Made by a program: the position numbers and the translations under genes
Source of the DNA: Bacteroidales bacterium
Lineage (GTDB): Bacteria; Bacteroidota; Bacteroidia; Bacteroidales; UBA932
DNA length: 48,036 nucleotides
Assembly: GCA_017471045.1 (NCBI GenBank)
Contig: JAFUWZ010000060.1
Span: 1 to 48,036 of the forward strand
Reading direction: 5' to 3'
Part shown: positions 4,447 through 17,913 of the stretch, piece after piece
Layout: every line of letters begins with the position of its first letter
How positions within the stretch are numbered: position 1 is the stretch's first letter
The notes under the pieces: model-generated
Told to the model about the DNA's origin: nothing
The model's input: only the letters and a program-made list of their open reading frames with translations
Database searches by the model: none

Positions 4447-5469
4447 CTAAAACTCGGAAATCCGGGACACAGGCGCAACATCCAGCGGGCAGCGCTCCCC
4501 TGCCAGATAGCGGTAATACCCGGCGATCGCAATCATGGCCGCGTTGTCGGTCGTAAACTTGAAGGCGGGCAGGTAGGTGTTCCAGCCGCGCTTGCGGCCT
4601 TCCGACTCGATGCGGCTGCGCAGGCCGCTGTTGGCCGACACGCCGCCGCCGATGGTGATCTCCTTGATCCCGGTCTGGCGCACGGCCTTGATGAGCTTGT
4701 TCATCAGGATGTCGATCAGGGTCTTCTGGAACGACGCACAGAGGTCCTCCTTGTTGTTTTCCAGAAACGACGGGTCCTTGGCCATCTCGTCCCGCACGAA
4801 ATACAGGAGCGAGGTCTTGATCCCGCTGAAACTGTAGTCCAGGCCCGGGATGCGCGGCTTGGCGAACTGGAAGCGGTCCGGGTCCCCCTCCTTGGCCAGG
4901 CGGTCGATGACCGGCCCGCCGGGATAGCCCAGGCCCAGCATCTTAGAGCATTTGTCGAAGGCCTCCCCCACCGCATCGTCGATGGTCTGGCCCAAGATCT
5001 CGAACTCCAGCGGACCGTCCACCCGCACGATCTGCGAATTGCCGCCCGACACGAGCAGGCACAGGTACGGGAACGAGGGCTGGCGGTTCTCTGCGCCTTC
5101 CTCCTTGACAAATCCGGCCAGGATGTGTCCCTGCAGGTGATTGACCATCACAATCGGGATGCCCAGCGAAAGGGACAGGGACTTGGCGAAGGACGTGCCT
5201 ACCAGCAGAGAGCCCAGCAAACCGGGGCCGCGCGTGAAAGCGATGGCCGTCAACTCCTCTTTCGACACGCCAGCCTGTCGGAGCGCTTCGCTCACCACGG
5301 GTACGATGTTGAGCTCGTGGGCACGGGAGGCCAGCTCCGGCACGACGCCGCCGAAACGCCGGTGTACGTCCTGGCCCGCGATAACGTTGGACAGCAGCCA
5401 TCCGTCGCGGATGACGGCCGCCGAAGTGTCGTCGCAAGAGGACTCGATGCCAAGAATGATGTCAGACAT
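4447..5469 (-). CDS. tsaD: tRNA threonylcarbamoyladenosine transferase TsaD
   Basis: This 340-residue ASKHA-fold protein starts MSDIILGIESSCDDTSAAV. TsaD transfers threonylcarbamoyl to A37 of ANN-decoding tRNAs (t6A), working with TsaB and TsaE in the cytoplasm. The metal-binding His pair is in VNHLQGHILAGF, and the glycine-rich segments LLVSGGNSQI and TIGGGVSANSGLR are present. Length and architecture are complete. A TTG two codons upstream is also in frame, but the ATG at 5469 fits the family. The first gene of the leftward operon, it has a TATCTTTG box 23 bp upstream of the start. Confidence 0.95.
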   Translation of the reverse strand: MSDIILGIESSCDDTSAAVIRDGWLLSNVIAGQDVHRRFGGVVPELASRAHELNIVPVVSEALRQAGVSKEELTAIAFTRGPGLLGSLLVGTSFAKSLSLSLGIPIVMVNHLQGHILAGFVKEEGAENRQPSFPYLCLLVSGGNSQIVRVDGPLEFEILGQTIDDAVGEAFDKCSKMLGLGYPGGPVIDRLAKEGDPDRFQFAKPRIPGLDYSFSGIKTSLLYFVRDEMAKDPSFLENNKEDLCASFQKTLIDILMNKLIKAVRQTGIKEITIGGGVSANSGLRSRIESEGRKRGWNTYLPAFKFTTDNAAMIAIAGYYRYLAGERCPLDVAPVSRISEF

Positions 5470-5492
5470 GATCAAAGCGCCATTTCACGCTG

Positions 5493-5500
5493 CAAAGATA
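5493..5500 (-). promoter_or_regulatory. -7 box TATCTTTG for the tsaD operon
   Basis: This is an exact TAnnTTTG match on the minus strand, giving a predicted leader of about 17 nt before the tsaD ATG. It lies back-to-back with the tamB promoter, separated by 22 bp. Confidence 0.65.
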
Positions 5501-5522
5501 GCAAATTTGGCATAATATTTAT

Positions 5523-5548
5523 TAACTTTGTAAGATCCGATAAAAGGA
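5523..5548 (+). promoter_or_regulatory. tamB promoter and ribosome binding site
   Basis: TAACTTTG at 5523-5530 matches the -7 consensus. AAAAGGA at 5542-5548 is a good Shine-Dalgarno sequence, 5 nt before ATC 5554 and 8 nt before ATC 5557. This placement argues that translation starts there although no ATG exists. Confidence 0.55.
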
Positions 5549-5553
5549 TCTGA

Positions 5554-8500
5554 ATCATCGCAAAAGTCAAACATATCGTCCCGCGCATCCTGGCTGCGCT
5601 GCTTCTCCTGCTCCTGGCAGGAGGGCTGGTCCTGCAGTCCCCGCGTGTGCAGACCGCCCTGGCCCGCAAACTCGCCGCCCGCCTCAACGAGAAGATCGAA
5701 GGCGAGCTGACCATCGGCCGGGTACAGATCCTTCCCTTCAAGACCGTGATCGTCCGCGACGCCGTCCTGACCGACAACGACCCGCTGGCCACCTCTTTCT
5801 TTGAACCGAAGGACACGGTCGCACGCATCGGCATGGCAACGGTTTCCTTCTCGCTGAAAGGCCTGACCGGCAGGAAACCCGTCGTCCTCAACAAGGTGGT
5901 GGTCCGGGACGGCCTGCTCAACCTCGTCACGGAAGCCCACCACGTCTCCAATATCAAGCGCATCTTCCACGGAAAGGAGCCCAAACCCCTGCAGGACAAG
6001 GGCGATGTCCTTCATGTCAAGCAGGTCGAAGCCCGCGACTTCCATTTCACCCTGTCCAATGCCCTCGGCAAGAAAGCGCCCAAAGGCAAGCCCGGGATCA
6101 ACTGGGCGGAGCTCGATCTGATGGCCGACGCCAAGGCCCATGATTTCCGGATCACGGGTGGCACCGTCCAGGGCGTCCTGGACGACGCCAAAGCGACCGA
6201 GAGGTCCGGTTACTCCTTCTACAACACCAGCGGCCGCGCCCAGGTCAGCCGGGGTAAGGTGGAGGTGTTCGACTTCGTCCTGAATGACGATGGCAGCCAC
6301 CTTGTACTCCCCTATTACGCGATGCGCTTCGACAACTACAGGTCCTTCGACCATTTCCTGGACGAAGTGGAGCTGGAGATCCAGCTCGGCCGTTCCCGGC
6401 TGGGCGAAGGGACGTTGAGAGGATTTGCCGGGCTGGCGCTCCCCCATCTCTCGATGGATATTTCCCAGGCCCGCGTACTGGGGACGATCAATGATTTCAC
6501 GGTCGAGTCATTGAGTTTCCGCGAACAAAGCGGGATCTCCGGCAGCCTCAGCGGAGAAGTCAGCCGCATCACGAATCTTCCCGAGAGTTACATCGACGCC
6601 AAGGTGGACGGCCTGACCTTCACGACCGAAGCGGCCGGGCGTCTCGTCGAGGCTTTTGCACCCGGAAAGGGTGCGGCCATCGGGCGCTATGCCCCAGGCG
6701 AAACCTTCCTGTTCAACGGCCGGCTCAAAGGCCCGGCCGACGACCTGGCCCTCGACTGCGCGCTCACCTCCCAGGCGGGCAGCGTCAACGGTTCCGTCAA
6801 GGCCAAGGATCTTCTGGACAGCAGCGTCCCCTCCCGCCTGGGCGGTTCCGTTGCCGTCAACAACCTGGACCTTGGCAGCCTGCTGGGCACCGACCGGGTC
6901 GGTGAATGCTCGATGCGGGGACAGATGGACGCCGTCCTTGGGCCGGGCGGGATCAGCCTGGACATCGACTCCCTGATCATTGACAAGGCCCGGATCAACG
7001 GTTACGACTACAGCAACATCGCCGGTGCCGGCACCTTCAAGGACGACGCGTTCAACGGCCGCATCGTCTGCTCTGACCCGAACCTGAATTTCATCTTCCA
7101 GGGCCTGGTCAACCTGTCCGGCAAGACCCACAACGCCCTTTACAAATTCTACTTCAACCTCGGCTACGCGGACCTCTACGCCCTCAACCTGGACAAGCGC
7201 GGCCCGTCCAAGGCTTCCCTGGCCGTCAACGCCAACATCTCCCGCATCGGCAAGGAGAACATCCTGGGCGACATCGACGTCAAGGACGTCCGGCTGGAAA
7301 ACCGGGACGGTATCCACGACATCGGCCACCTATCCCTCCGCTCCTACACCTCCAACGAGACGCAGCGGCTCAGTTTCGAGTCCGCCTTCGCCCAAGCACA
7401 ATTCTCCGGTTCCAAGCCGGTCACAGGCCTGGTCACCGCCTTGCGGGACGGTGTCTTGTACAAGGAACTCCCCGCCCTGGCCGCGAAGGCGCCCGCCGTG
7501 CCGGAGGGTGAAGACTACCGGCTGACGCTGAAAACCGCCGACACCCGCGACCTGCTCTCCTTCGTCCTGCCCGGCCTGTACGTGGCCGAAGGCACAACCC
7601 TGAATCTCCGGATGGGAAGGGACGGGACCCTGAAAACCGAACTCAAGTCCCAGCGCCTCGCCTTGCAGGACAAATACCTCAAAAATGTCACCCTCCAAGC
7701 GCGGGGGGACGGTGAGCGTCTCCTCTGCGACCTTGCGGGCGACGAGTTGAATGCCGGCGTCAAACTGCTGGGTAACCGGATCCGTATCGAGGCGGACAGC
7801 AACCGCGTGGGTCTGCGCTACCGTTTCGACAACGGAACGGATCCTGAGACGAAAGGCCTGCTGGATCTGGCCTGCACCCTAAGCCGGAACCGGGACAACC
7901 GGCTCAACTACGACATCCGCACCCTCCCCTCCGACCTCACCGTCGGCGGGGAGAAATGGACGTTCGACCCGTCGGACATCTCGATCAAGCCGGCCGGCGT
8001 AGCGGTCCCCCGCTTCGTCGCCCACAACGGCGAGCAGCGGATGGAGATAGAGGGCGGCCTTTCCCGGAAGCATGAAGACACGCTGGTCCTCGCACTGAAC
8101 CGGATCGCCCTGGAGGCCGTCCGCTCCCTGGCGCCGGACCTGCCTGACATCCAGGGCATCCTGACCGGCGATATCCGGATGGTATCTCCTTTCGGCAAGG
8201 ACCAGCTCGATCTCCATGCGCATCTCCGGGCGCAGGAAACGTCCGTCAGCGGTTATGATGCCGGGACGTTAAGCCTGTCCGGCGAATGGGACAACGAGCA
8301 CAACCGGATGGAATTCCTCTTCGAAGACCGGGTCCGGGAAGCAACGACCCTCCGGGCGCACGGCACCTATCAGCCCTCCAGCCACGAACTCAGGGCCAAG
8401 GCCCGGATGGACAGCCTCCAGATCGGCTACGCCAGCGGATTCGTGCAGGAAGTCTTCAGCCGCCTGGAGGGCAAAATCAGCGGAGACCTGGCTGTCAGCG

Positions 8501-13025: not shown

Positions 13026-14447
13026 CTACTGGAACAAATCGTCCATCGTCAATTGGACCGGGATATCGGCTGCATTTGCGTTGTTGGTGAGTCCGAATGT
13101 AGTGATGAGTGAGAGCATGATCCGTTTCCGAGTTCCGGTTTCCCTCTTGAAAACGGTCTTGCGGTACTCCATCTTTGAAAGGTCCTCTGACGAAAGCGGA
13201 TAAGGTGATTTGCTGTATTTCATTTCGCAGAGGTTGATGGTATCGTCGTTGCGGTCGATCAGGAGGTCTATCTGGACGCCTTCCTCTTTTGAGTCCTTGG
13301 GGGCCTTCCAGTTCCAGGAATGGGCTGTACTGATTACGACGGTAAGTCCCATCGCTTTCTTGATTTGCTCCAGATGTTGCAGGCATACTCTCTCGAAGGC
13401 CAGGCCAACCCAGTTGCCATAGACCCCGGTGTCCAGGTTAGAGGTCCAGAAATGTGACTCTCCGCGGGTGTTCTCTCTGATGAATTTGAACCAGAAGAGC
13501 GTGTAGTTATCCATCAATTGGTATAAGGAGCCCTTCTTTTTATTCCCGATCATCGTATATTTACGGATGAAGCCACACTGCTCCAACTCCTTGAGCGCAT
13601 TGGAGAAGGTTTCATTATCGCTGAGAGAGGTGATGTCCAATATCTCCTCTCTCAGCAATCCGCCTTTCTTTGTGGCCAAGGCATTGACGATTGCAATATG
13701 TGTCTTGGGACGTTTGAACAGCGAAGCATAGAGGGCGTCGTATTCGTGGACCATTTCACCATCTTCTTCGAAGAACATCCGGTCAATATTCTGGGCTACA
13801 GAAAAGCCGGGACGAAGGATACTCCAGTAGTATGGAATACCTCCCATCACCATATATGCTTCCAGGATTTGCCTGCGGGTGAAATCGAGTTTGTGTTCAC
13901 GGCTGTATTCCTCACATTCCCTCAGCGTGAATGGACGGAGCTGAATCTGGCGGGTGACGCGGTCGTGGAGACCGCCGTAATTCATCACGATATTGTCAAT
14001 AATCCAGGAGGTGGCGCTACCGCAGACGATGAGGATGATGTCCTTACGGGTGGTGGCCCAGGCATTCCAGAAATGATCAAGTGCACGGATAAAGTTGGAT
14101 TTGGGCGTATCCATCCAAGGCAGTGCGTCGATGAATACGATTTTCTTTCCTTCAGGAAGGCTTGTCAGAAGGCGCTGAAGGAGCCGGAAAGCATCGCCCC
14201 AGGTCTTTGGCTTGGGACTTTTGGGCAGGCCTGCGGCGTAGAGTGATTCCCGGAATTCACCCAGTTGCTCGCTCATGGGGGCATCCAGGATTCCGGTGTG
14301 CTGGAAGGCAAACTGGTAGTTGAAGGTCTCGCGCACCAGGAATGTTTTGCCGACTCGACGCCTGCCATAGAGGGCCACGAATTCGGACTGTTTTGACTGT
14401 AATAGCTCGTTGAGCAGTGCCTGTTCTTTTTCTCTTCCTATCAGCAT
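13026..14447 (-). CDS. DUF234-type ATPase (archaeal-ATPase-like)
   Basis: This 473-residue protein starts MLIGREKEQALLNELL. It has a Walker A motif (GRRRVGKTF), a Walker B strand (IVFIDALPWMD) and a sensor-like IILIVCGSATSW. A winged-helix region follows, then a C-terminal PD-(D/E)XK-like module (VQIDLLIDR ... INLCEMKYS). Such proteins are common in Bacteroidales accessory regions and are suspected defence or toxin-antitoxin ATPases; the true role is unknown. The Walker B motif usually reads DELPW or DEMPW; here it is DALPW, so the catalytic Glu appears replaced. Start 14447 is supported by AAAGGAC 8-13 bp upstream. It is AT-richer than the core genes. Confidence 0.82.
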   Translation of the reverse strand: MLIGREKEQALLNELLQSKQSEFVALYGRRRVGKTFLVRETFNYQFAFQHTGILDAPMSEQLGEFRESLYAAGLPKSPKPKTWGDAFRLLQRLLTSLPEGKKIVFIDALPWMDTPKSNFIRALDHFWNAWATTRKDIILIVCGSATSWIIDNIVMNYGGLHDRVTRQIQLRPFTLRECEEYSREHKLDFTRRQILEAYMVMGGIPYYWSILRPGFSVAQNIDRMFFEEDGEMVHEYDALYASLFKRPKTHIAIVNALATKKGGLLREEILDITSLSDNETFSNALKELEQCGFIRKYTMIGNKKKGSLYQLMDNYTLFWFKFIRENTRGESHFWTSNLDTGVYGNWVGLAFERVCLQHLEQIKKAMGLTVVISTAHSWNWKAPKDSKEEGVQIDLLIDRNDDTINLCEMKYSKSPYPLSSEDLSKMEYRKTVFKRETGTRKRIMLSLITTFGLTNNANAADIPVQLTMDDLFQ

Positions 14448-14454
14448 AATAGTG

Positions 14455-14490
14455 TCCTTTCTTTGATGTACAAAGATAATGATTATCTTT
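14455..14490 (-). promoter_or_regulatory. ATPase promoter with overlapping dyad
   Basis: On the minus strand, TATCTTTG (14471-14478) is an exact -7 box. It is embedded in a perfect palindrome, AAAGATAAT-G-ATTATCTTT (14472-14490). AAAGGAC (14454-14460) is the ribosome binding site. A repressor binding the dyad would cover the promoter; autoregulation is possible but unproven. Confidence 0.6.
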
Positions 14491-14502
14491 TGAAATGATG
14501 CC

Positions 14503-14549
14503 ATAAGCCGTGGAAATCTACAAAAAATCAGCACATTTCCACGGCTTAT
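14503..14549. repeat. Perfect 15-bp inverted repeat, 17-nt loop
   Basis: The arms 14503-14517 (ATAAGCCGTGGAAAT) and 14535-14549 are exact reverse complements. The element sits between the ATPase promoter and the end of the minus-strand fragment at 14560. It has no T-run after the stem on either strand, so it is a weak candidate for an intrinsic terminator and could be an operator or recombination site. Confidence 0.7.
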
Positions 14550-15949: not shown

Positions 15950-15968
15950 GTGGTATATTTTTTATCAA

Positions 15969-16000
15969 CATCGGCCCCTTAGGGTGGTGAGAGGCCGATG
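15969..16000. repeat. 8-bp stem-loop downstream of fic
   Basis: CATCGGCC (15969-15976) and GGCCGATG (15993-16000) form a perfect stem. It lies just beyond the repeat pair after the fic stop and could terminate fic transcription, although the T-rich stretch on the minus strand is interrupted. Confidence 0.45.
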
Positions 16001-16052
16001 GAATAATACATAAGATTTTTGTCTATTTTCAGTGTTGTTTGGGTGTTTCAAT

Positions 16053-16102
16053 GGGTAAAATTGTCGAAATTCAGCTGGGCCTTCTGGTAAAATTGTCGAA
16101 AT
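16053..16102. repeat. Repeat pair, 3' side of fic cassette
   Basis: Two copies of GGTAAAATTGTCGAAAT (16053-16070 and 16085-16102) are spaced exactly 32 bp apart. The fic stop codon (TAG on the minus strand, 16103-16105) abuts the second copy. A pair with the same 32-bp phase sits on the other side of fic. Confidence 0.85.
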
Positions 16103-17569
16103 CTAGAACTTAAGGATGTATTCCTGTTCATCCCGGAAGGCGTTGCACTGCTCCAGATAAGCCTTGAGCGCATCATAATCGGAGCCGTCCAGGCCACTGC
16201 TCCAAAGGCGTACCCTTTCCATAGCGCGGATGATGGTTGACGGCTCTCCATTCTGAGTAAGACGTTTCAAGGCGTCGATGTAATCAATACGATACACAGT
16301 GGGGATGATAATCTTGGGCATCCCGGCTGCCGTAAGTTCCGCATTCATCATGATGCGGGATATGCGGCCATTGCCATCCATGAAAGGATGGACCTCACTA
16401 ACCATAAACAGGATGAAGTATGCCTTTGCAACTGGGTCCTGGATGGCATTGTAAATCTCAAACCCTTTCTTCAATGTCCCGCGAACAAGACGGTAATCTA
16501 CAAAATGCGAGTTTCCCGCCTTGTTATTCTGCTCCTTGAAAAGCCCGGGCGTTTTTGTGGGTCTTGCAGACAGAAGGATCGAATGCCGGCGCTGAAGCAT
16601 ATTGATAAGGTTGTCAGGGTCTTTGGGCAAGATGGACATCTCTTTCCTATTGGAGGTTAGAAAGAAAGTACCCAGAACATCATGGCTGTCTTCATCTCTT
16701 GTAGGAAGTGCGACACCGGTATCGACAATCTGCTTGGCTTCCTCCACCTCGAACTCTGTTCCTTCAATATAGTTGGAGAAATAACTCTCGAAGAAAGCGA
16801 AGTTCTTATAGGCCGTCTCAGCCCCATTGATGTCAGTATAGTGTTTGAAATCTTTCTGGGAAAGATGTTCATACAGTGTGCTGAACAGGCTGATGCGCTC
16901 CGAATCATACGGCTCTCCTGCAGCCCAGGCCTTGGCGGATTCTCCTTTTAGGGCCTCTGCTTCCCGAGTAGAAAGAATTGCGCCAATGATCTTATCCAGA
17001 AGTTTGAATTCGTTTTCTAATTGCAATTGCCTAGACATTTCGCGAGCCTCGTCACGAAGACGATTCAACTCGTTCTCTCCGTTTGCCAGTAACTTCTTTT
17101 CCAGTTTCGCTTCCAGTTGTGCCTGGGGAATGCACTTGGAAACGCCGTTTCTGACATAACCCAGCTGAAGGTTTTCCAAGTATGCACGTGCAGGATTGGA
17201 GATGAACAGACCGTCCAGGTAGGGTATGTCTTTCTCGATAGGTTTAGGTCCGGCCACTAGGTGCAAAACAATTCCCGGCAAAGAGACATTTTTTGTGTAG
17301 CCGTAACTCAAGTAGAAGTGTCCATCGGCTGAAGGCCTAAGTTCAAACGCGGACCGATGGCTTATCAGTGCGCCGGGATACAGCCGGCCGATAATCATGT
17401 AGAGGTTCCGACGAACGATGTTCTCCGGAGTATCTATCAGATTGGTAGTATATACGCGGGATGCTATTTTTTGTAGCTTCTCCTCCTTTTTGAGACGTGT
17501 GATCATAGCCGACATTTTCTTGTCGGACGACGCAATCAATATTTCGGGTAGCTGAGTATTTTTTTCCAT
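16103..17569 (-). CDS. Fic-domain protein with AbiEi-like N-terminus
   Basis: The protein has 488 residues. Residues 1-150 resemble the winged-helix AbiEi antitoxin-type domain (KKEEKLQKIASRVYTTNL; GALISHRSAFELRP). Residues 240-420 form a Fic domain with the catalytic loop HPFMDGNGR starting at His394. An N-terminal-type autoinhibitory motif (S/T)xxxE(G/N) is seen as SNYIEG at 265-270. Fic enzymes usually transfer AMP to protein hydroxyls, here presumably cytoplasmic and self-inhibited. The antitoxin-like plus toxin-like fusion suggests a self-contained regulatory or defence unit. It is AT-richer than the core genes and framed by paired 18-bp repeats. Confidence 0.88.
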   Translation of the reverse strand: MEKNTQLPEILIASSDKKMSAMITRLKKEEKLQKIASRVYTTNLIDTPENIVRRNLYMIIGRLYPGALISHRSAFELRPSADGHFYLSYGYTKNVSLPGIVLHLVAGPKPIEKDIPYLDGLFISNPARAYLENLQLGYVRNGVSKCIPQAQLEAKLEKKLLANGENELNRLRDEAREMSRQLQLENEFKLLDKIIGAILSTREAEALKGESAKAWAAGEPYDSERISLFSTLYEHLSQKDFKHYTDINGAETAYKNFAFFESYFSNYIEGTEFEVEEAKQIVDTGVALPTRDEDSHDVLGTFFLTSNRKEMSILPKDPDNLINMLQRRHSILLSARPTKTPGLFKEQNNKAGNSHFVDYRLVRGTLKKGFEIYNAIQDPVAKAYFILFMVSEVHPFMDGNGRISRIMMNAELTAAGMPKIIIPTVYRIDYIDALKRLTQNGEPSTIIRAMERVRLWSSGLDGSDYDALKAYLEQCNAFRDEQEYILKF

Positions 17570-17595
17570 TTTTGAACGGGATTCATTACAAAGAT

Positions 17596-17645
17596 GGGTA
17601 AAATTTTCTAAATTAAGGCATCTTTTTGGGTAAAATTGTCGAAAT
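17596..17645. repeat. Repeat pair, 5' side of fic cassette
   Basis: GGGTAAAATTTTCTAAAT (17596-17613) and GGGTAAAATTGTCGAAAT (17628-17645) are again 32 bp apart. The second copy is followed by CTA, as on the other side, which reads as a TAG stop for a minus-strand frame ending AAMEKALGE. The first copy runs into a CATCTTTG near-consensus -7 box for fic. Confidence 0.85.
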
Positions 17646-17667
17646 CTACTCTCCGAGCGCTTTTTCC

Positions 17668-17772
17668 ATGGCCGCCTTGGATAACCTGCCAGGCCACAGG
17701 ATGCGCTTTGACTATAGCGACGGCGATCCGGACCAGGAGGCCAACTTCACCATTCTTCAGAAAACCGCCTGA
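17668..17772 (+). pseudogene. Short frame before the second mini-ORF
   Basis: Thirty-four codons (MAALDNLPGHRMRFDYSDGD ... QKTA) end 27 bp before the mini-ORF at 17800. Its position parallels the AlbA_2-like tail before the other mini-ORF, but the sequences do not obviously match. A minus-strand frame across the same bases ends KAAMEKALGE at the repeat, so either strand could be the true relic. Confidence 0.25.
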
Positions 17773-17799: not shown

Positions 17800-17913
17800 A
17801 TGGACTGCCGGGAATCGTTGGAGTTCCTTCTCAGCGACGAAGGAAAAGCCGCCATTGTCCAGCTGCACGTTGAAGGCATCATCGCCTACGTCCGTAGCCA
17901 AAACCAGGACTAA
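17800..17913 (+). CDS. Mini-ORF, 37 aa, paralogue of 14913-15023
   Basis: The peptide starts MDCRESLEFLLSDEGKAAIV and continues LHVEGIIAYVRSQ. About half its residues match the 36-aa ORF at 14913, and lengths and start positions agree. Two independently placed copies next to accessory ATPase and Fic genes support a real small-protein family or a conserved C-terminal module. No clear ribosome binding site is visible. Confidence 0.45.
   Translation: MDCRESLEFLLSDEGKAAIVQLHVEGIIAYVRSQNQD

Follow-up and report, generated by a model that had tools for sequence, protein, structure and literature searches.

Direct repeats in front of fic genes keep a register of 31 or 32 bp (or 41 bp) in two phyla while the sequence of the repeats changes, which points to a fixed protein geometry that reads evolving sites. 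The register is described here from one fic gene and its homologues. The window is the whole stretch of DNA analysed, positions 1-48,036 of contig JAFUWZ010000060.1 of a Bacteroidales bacterium, whose genome assembly has a size of 2.6 Mb in 73 contigs and is 96% complete. The fic gene in it lies between two pairs of a short repeat, which we call R. We consider it likely that the pair before the start codon, R4 and R3', is the operator of an autorepressed fic gene, and that the pair after the stop codon, R2 and R1, consists of surplus operator copies that arose by duplication and recombination. The register is a more interesting result than the idea of the initial annotation, a single-gene cassette, which found partial support. 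The features are as follows.

16103..17569, minus strand: fic gene of 488 aa (protein P0001), with an AbiEi-like N-terminus (about residues 13-89) and a class II Fic domain
17628..17645, minus strand: R4, putative distal operator repeat, gene strand ATTTCGACAATTTTACCC; it adjoins the stop codon of the recombinase remnant, and its register is kept in homologues
17596..17613, minus strand: R3', putative proximal operator repeat, gene strand ATTTAGAAAATTTTACCC, beside the likely -7 box
17589..17596, minus strand: likely Bacteroidota -7 element CATCTTTG, from direct reading of the sequence
16085..16102, minus strand: R2, probable leftover operator copy, touching the fic stop codon
16053..16070, minus strand: R1, outer downstream repeat
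17646..17669, minus strand: last codons (MEKALGE and stop) of a decayed tyrosine recombinase, by DNA match to the tail at L061 and L091
15967..16052, no strand: left flank common to occupied and fic-less sites, a hairpin ATCGGCC...GGCCGAT followed by AT-rich, conserved sequence that reaches R1

The -7 consensus of Bacteroidota is TAnnTTTG. The initial annotation had described two repeat copies on each side of the gene, and copies do stand at 16053, 16085, 17596 and 17628, but the one at 17596 reads GGGTAAAATTTTCTAAAT, with two mismatches. Because this variant recurs at the same place in 5 of the 6 other close fic copies, with a near variant in L097, it is taken as a fixed difference. The 32-bp register inside each pair, the unlikeness of the 14-bp spacers of the two pairs, the pair-to-pair distance of 1543 bp and the direct contact between the repeat and the minus-strand TAG of fic (16103-16105) were all confirmed. 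On the other side a TAG at 17646-17648 touches the repeat as well, but the frame reported as ending in KALGE, with the end MEKALGE, is not a gene. There are 4 matches to R in the window while 0.04 are expected from shuffles of the window, and the 2.6-Mb assembly contains no exact match to GGTAAAATTNTCNAAAT beyond these 4 (the reversed control has 0). The repeat-bounded unit has fic as its only long ORF and no recombinase gene inside. No transposon hallmarks (terminal inverted repeats, transposase) were found at the unit and no inverted repeat pair lies at its edges; the one pair that spans it, I6, sits hundreds of bases outside. An AAA ATPase with a DUF234 domain is encoded near the unit, at 13026-14534.

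What kind of protein is encoded between the repeats? Judged by its motifs, P0001 carries an intact class II Fic domain of the AMPylator type. The Pfam Fic profile matches at residues 325-411 (7.5e-11), and the Fic motif HxFx(D/E)GNGRxxR is present as HPFMDGNGRISR (394-405); all 29 homologues keep its catalytic residues. The inhibitory motif (S/T)xxxE(G/N), N-terminal to the Fic motif, is present as SNYIEG (265-270), and its S265, E269 and G270 are invariant in the 29 homologues. This combination of motifs is that of the class II AMPylators FICD and SoFic, and PDB profiles match a FICD homologue at 2.9e-16 and SoFic at 2.2e-4; unlike them, P0001 has an AbiEi-like N-terminus and an operator array. 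The N-terminus is probably AbiEi-like and DNA-binding, and may be a winged helix, as suggested by a match to the PADLOC AbiEi profile (9.6e-7) and by one AbiEi model that matches 11 of the 29 family members. NCBIfam AbiEi reaches only 0.02-0.05, Pfam finds no AbiEi domain among the 29 members, a direct profile comparison with the AbiEi of L060 gave no match, and a structure predicted from four sequences had a pLDDT of 33.5 and was unusable. At L060 itself a decayed fic start, read by eye, stands beside R', and an AbiEi/AbiEii gene pair (4721-6333; Pfam 4.9e-25 and 1.7e-33) adjoins this fic start and its operator pair.

Is the repeat pair peculiar to the window, or does it belong to the family? 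Homologues of fic with 35-57% identity occur in 11 of 247 genomes of the order and 36 of 325 genomes of the phylum, both counts including the window genome and G789. They were also found in 21 plasmid records (8 fetched) and one viral contig, while P0001 had no match in phage records. In most fetched homologues, from Bacteroidota and Proteobacteria, direct repeats of clade-specific sequence stand right before the start codon. For a quantitative description, 53 of 54 proteins were clustered at 70% identity into 21 clusters (L232, with an unreliable start codon, was left out), and the upstream 110 bp of the 20 non-window clusters were given a match score at each lag and compared with shuffles. 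At lag 31 the mean match score is 10.7 versus 3.8 in shuffles (z 24.3), followed by lag 41 (z 6.8) and lag 32 (z 4.9). The peak is exactly at lag 31 in 14 of the 20 clusters, and 16 have p<=0.05 for 31/32; the clusters without a significant 31/32 signal are L194, L197, L198 and L207, the last peaking at 41. No lag-31 peak appears in the control regions, namely the downstream 110 bp, the 300-410 bp upstream and the first 110 bp of the gene, where z nowhere exceeds 4.6 (at lag 36). Locus by locus, the peak is at 32 in the seven close copies and in the homologues of B. fragilis and P. vulgatus, and at 31 in 28 of the 45 remaining loci. Steps of 31, 32 and 41 bp amount to about three and four helical turns. 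When operator similarity was compared with similarity of the N-terminus over that of the Fic domain, the partial r was 0.09 (permutation p 0.064). The upstream repeat pair belongs to the fic family and not to a cassette system, and R4 together with R3' is, by this sequence pattern, probably the fic operator. A paralogue with 53% identity to P0001, L241 (G599:C7:81052-82521), has its own 32-bp repeat pair; its match at 41 bp is weaker, and direct repeats of 87 bp and 35 bp enclose it.

Then why are there repeats after the gene? The downstream pair R2 and R1 is a probable leftover operator copy. The main rival to this reading is that both arrays are functional, with Fic bound upstream and downstream so that the DNA is looped or read-through is blocked, and repression is tightened; we regard it as rather unlikely. 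An upstream motif fit for the comparison was available at 29 loci, seven close copies and 22 others. All seven close copies have R after the fic stop, exact or degenerate, and clear downstream copies of the motif occur outside them in L199 (18/18), L212 (15/18) and L210 (14/18), which suits a looping role, as do three such repeats seen by eye downstream in L194, a locus with no upstream array. Against this role, 17 of the 22 other homologues have no clear downstream copy and two are borderline (L204, inverted, and L239), and among the close copies L091, L095 and L097 are partly degenerate, the decay in L095 and L097 counting against a function. Tandem duplication, which the leftover-copy reading would need, does occur in the fic family, since in L225 a partial second fic, 96% identical, lies in tandem just upstream of the intact one.

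A framing test searched for direct repeats with E<1e-8 within 1.5 kb on both sides. Such framing was found at 8 of 26 fic loci versus 4 of 192 control positions (p 5e-6), the match of the window being the R array itself; inverted repeats frame 1 of the fic loci and 0 of the control positions. Ordinary causes were recognised by eye in some cases: L194 owes its repeats to the start of an AAA-ATPase-like gene, L221 to a tRNA-like repeat, and L199 and L200 to what look like interspersed repeats. The enrichment is therefore only a hint of mobility. It can be cited for the idea that the operator doubles as an exchange site: phased operator repeats would recombine with one another, and fic units would thereby spread, be duplicated or be lost, perhaps with the Fic repressor bringing distant arrays together. 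We give this idea a low probability.

The distribution of R in relatives bears on whether the unit is an insertable or duplicable single-gene cassette, as the initial annotation proposed. The repeats are not confined to this locus, a case that it had held to speak against a cassette: R-like words occur in 17 of 299 family genomes, and among these genomes the complete four-repeat unit is present in the window genome, G162 and G245, all with the spacing 32/1511/32. L091 has a similar unit whose outermost R has three mismatches. An exact-pattern scan of a collection of 84,980 species gave 22 stretches, of which 14 were taken as real R loci; single R-like words at L043, L045, L047, L048, L049, L052, L053 and L059 were judged unrelated by eye. 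The word with at most one mismatch occurs in 60 of 400 genomes of the genus (reversed control 10), part of which were inspected at locus level. The R pair has 0 stretches in viral contigs.

The blastn similarity of the window ends at about 15969-17680 against L029 and at about 16017-17670 against L030, with no likeness outside about 16.0-17.7 kb. The same two flanks enclose fic in the window, L029, L030 and L091, and enclose a single R without fic in L032 and L090. Bare R pairs without fic stand at L051, L056 and L061, triple R at L044 and L041, and a 13-bp fic tail at L058. L050, L095 and L097 hold full-length close fic copies at different addresses, and remnants lie at yet more; close copies at several addresses with R at the edge indicate that the unit moves or is lost. 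For L095, a syntenic empty site downstream of the aldolase gene (our naming) was found at 0 of 23 such loci, among 30 matches listed from 300 genomes. P0001 has a match in 5 of 13 R-site genomes searched and none in G269, G606 (74% complete), G432 and G608, which are single-R, bare-pair and triple-R genomes; G599 has the 53% paralogue and G461 a weak distant match only.

Are the bare pairs empty targets or footprints? Three sites do hold the bare pair that was expected of empty sites, but their spacers are those of occupied sites. The spacer at L061 equals the right-hand spacer of occupied sites (14/15), and those at L056 and L051 equal the left-hand spacer (13/15), so they are expected products of recombination between different R copies. 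The array after fic in L050 has the right, or operator, type of spacer (13/15). In L044 the first spacer has no good match to occupied sites (p 0.46) and the second fits the right type (12/15), and the second spacer of L041 fits weakly. This pattern suggests that bare pairs reflect fic loss rather than targets before insertion.

Integron gene cassettes consist of a gene and a short repeat, with a stop near the boundary, and are marked by an attC-type inverted repeat behind the gene and by an integron integrase. The fic unit resembles them as a gene with a short repeat and a stop codon at the boundary, and differs in that its edges have no inverted repeat, no integrase lies inside, its direct repeats lie in the promoter and its neighbour is a recombinase remnant of the tRNA-island type. 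Movement of the unit by site-specific recombination at R, as an integron cassette moves, would fit R at the unit boundaries at several addresses, the single-R sites with both flanks and the stop codons that touch R. It would also fit a recombinase tail that occurs without R, and a case of other cargo: a unit lying exactly between two 24-bp direct repeats is present in L096 and missing in L094, and holds a fic remnant and rhuM (Pfam Virulence_RhuM 1.5e-110), whose stop touches a repeat copy. However, rhuM at this one locus was the only other gene found between the repeats, not a series of unrelated cargo genes, and four R copies per genome and the missing recombinase argue against recombination at R, as do the register kept upstream of distant homologues and the bare-pair spacers that resemble deletion products. 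We therefore find such a cassette improbable. Of the two roles first offered for the repeats, recombination sites or regulatory sites, the regulatory one is better supported, by the register in homologues. On two plasmids with fic homologues, L234 (CP103159.1) and L233 (NZ_CP103198.1), of Bacteroides fragilis and Phocaeicola vulgatus, fic stands behind a recombinase-family gene and ahead of a small hypothetical one, after which comes a gene annotated as RhuM-family.

A further question is whether the arrays belong to the neighbouring recombinase. The tail in the window is 98% identical in DNA to the tail of L061 and L091 over 40 bases; in tblastn with the recombinase this remnant was not matched, the piece being too short. 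Longer remnants with the same junction of stop codon and R occur in L091, L056 and others, and intact relatives exist: the Pfam Phage_integrase match is 1.1e-8 for the full-length relative in L055 and 0.0016 for the L091 remnant, the latter weak and under the Pfam cut-off. A 49-residue recombinase tail was matched in 77 of 120 genomes of the genus. If R arrays were arm or attachment sites of this tyrosine recombinase, in a tRNA-Phe island, R would be expected to touch the recombinase stop, as it does, and tRNA-Phe genes do lie near the site in L030 and L032. But the same arrays occur at addresses without a recombinase match (L050, L095, L097, L044) and in distant homologues, and the recombinase in the window is a remnant. 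The reading is weakened further by L145 (G401) and the second tail of L051, where the hairpin and a related recombinase tail stand about 100 diverged bases apart and R is missing. R is thus not obligatory at the hairpin/recombinase-tail site, which favours insertion of the unit there and disfavours R as the recombinase's own site. We consider an attachment-site role very improbable. In 250 genomes the left flank next to R1 was never found at full length unless R was there too; the only R-free pieces of it, four fragments of about 25-30 bases (G493, G335, G317, G458), are at or near chance level. The hairpin CATCGGCCCCT..AGGCCGATG by the left flank (window 15967-16000) recurs at further loci with R present or absent, for example L145. 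Fragments of apparently the same protein, LEFLLSDEGKAAIVQLHVEGI and LAFLESDEGKKAIIALHVDGI, adjoin R arrays at two addresses, the window (17818-17913) and L041, there on both sides of the array.

How would the operator work? P0001, with its AbiEi-like N-terminus, probably binds both R4 and R3', which share one face of the DNA at a distance of three helical turns, and the bound protein would shut the promoter bordered by R3', giving autorepression. R2 and R1 would then be surplus copies left when the operator-plus-gene unit was duplicated in tandem and recombined unequally, and recombination between short direct repeats would account for fic-less sites that keep a single R or a bare pair. We infer this order of events, like the binding, the repression and the toxicity of the protein, from sequence.

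Autoregulated Fic or AbiEi proteins are already known. AbiEi of the AbiE type IV toxin-antitoxin system represses itself through two widely spaced sites, inverted 11-mers with N27 (PMC3985639). By analogy, P0001 has an AbiEi-like N-terminus and two repeats set far apart in the promoter of its gene, and negative autoregulation would be expected. In the window, however, the operator is of direct repeats at 31/32 while the AbiEi sites described there are inverted, the putative regulator forms one protein with Fic, and the AbiEii toxin (PF08843) is absent from the fic operon, its sole match in the genome lying on contig C41 (the window is C48). CccR of Yersinia is a Fic protein and secreted effector with an HTH that represses itself through two widely spaced boxes, inverted 10-mers with N26 (PMC9755527). 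P0001 is similarly a Fic protein with its own putative DNA-binding domain and two widely spaced boxes at its own promoter; as described there, the HTH of CccR is C-terminal and its boxes are inverted, unlike the N-terminal regulator-like part and direct repeats here. What is new is that the direct repeats hold a fixed register while their sequence drifts, an arrangement not described in the literature searched (titles and abstract openings, with subscription journals mostly outside).

The best reading of these sequences is a one-gene, self-repressing AbiEi-Fic protein. If the operator did double as an exchange site, the switch of fic would at the same time mark where its mobile unit ends. The fic-less sites would show the footprints that operator repeats leave after loss of a toxin gene. 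The register gives a sequence rule for locating promoters and start codons of AbiEi-Fic genes, and it opens this widespread family to direct tests as one-gene, self-repressed toxins.
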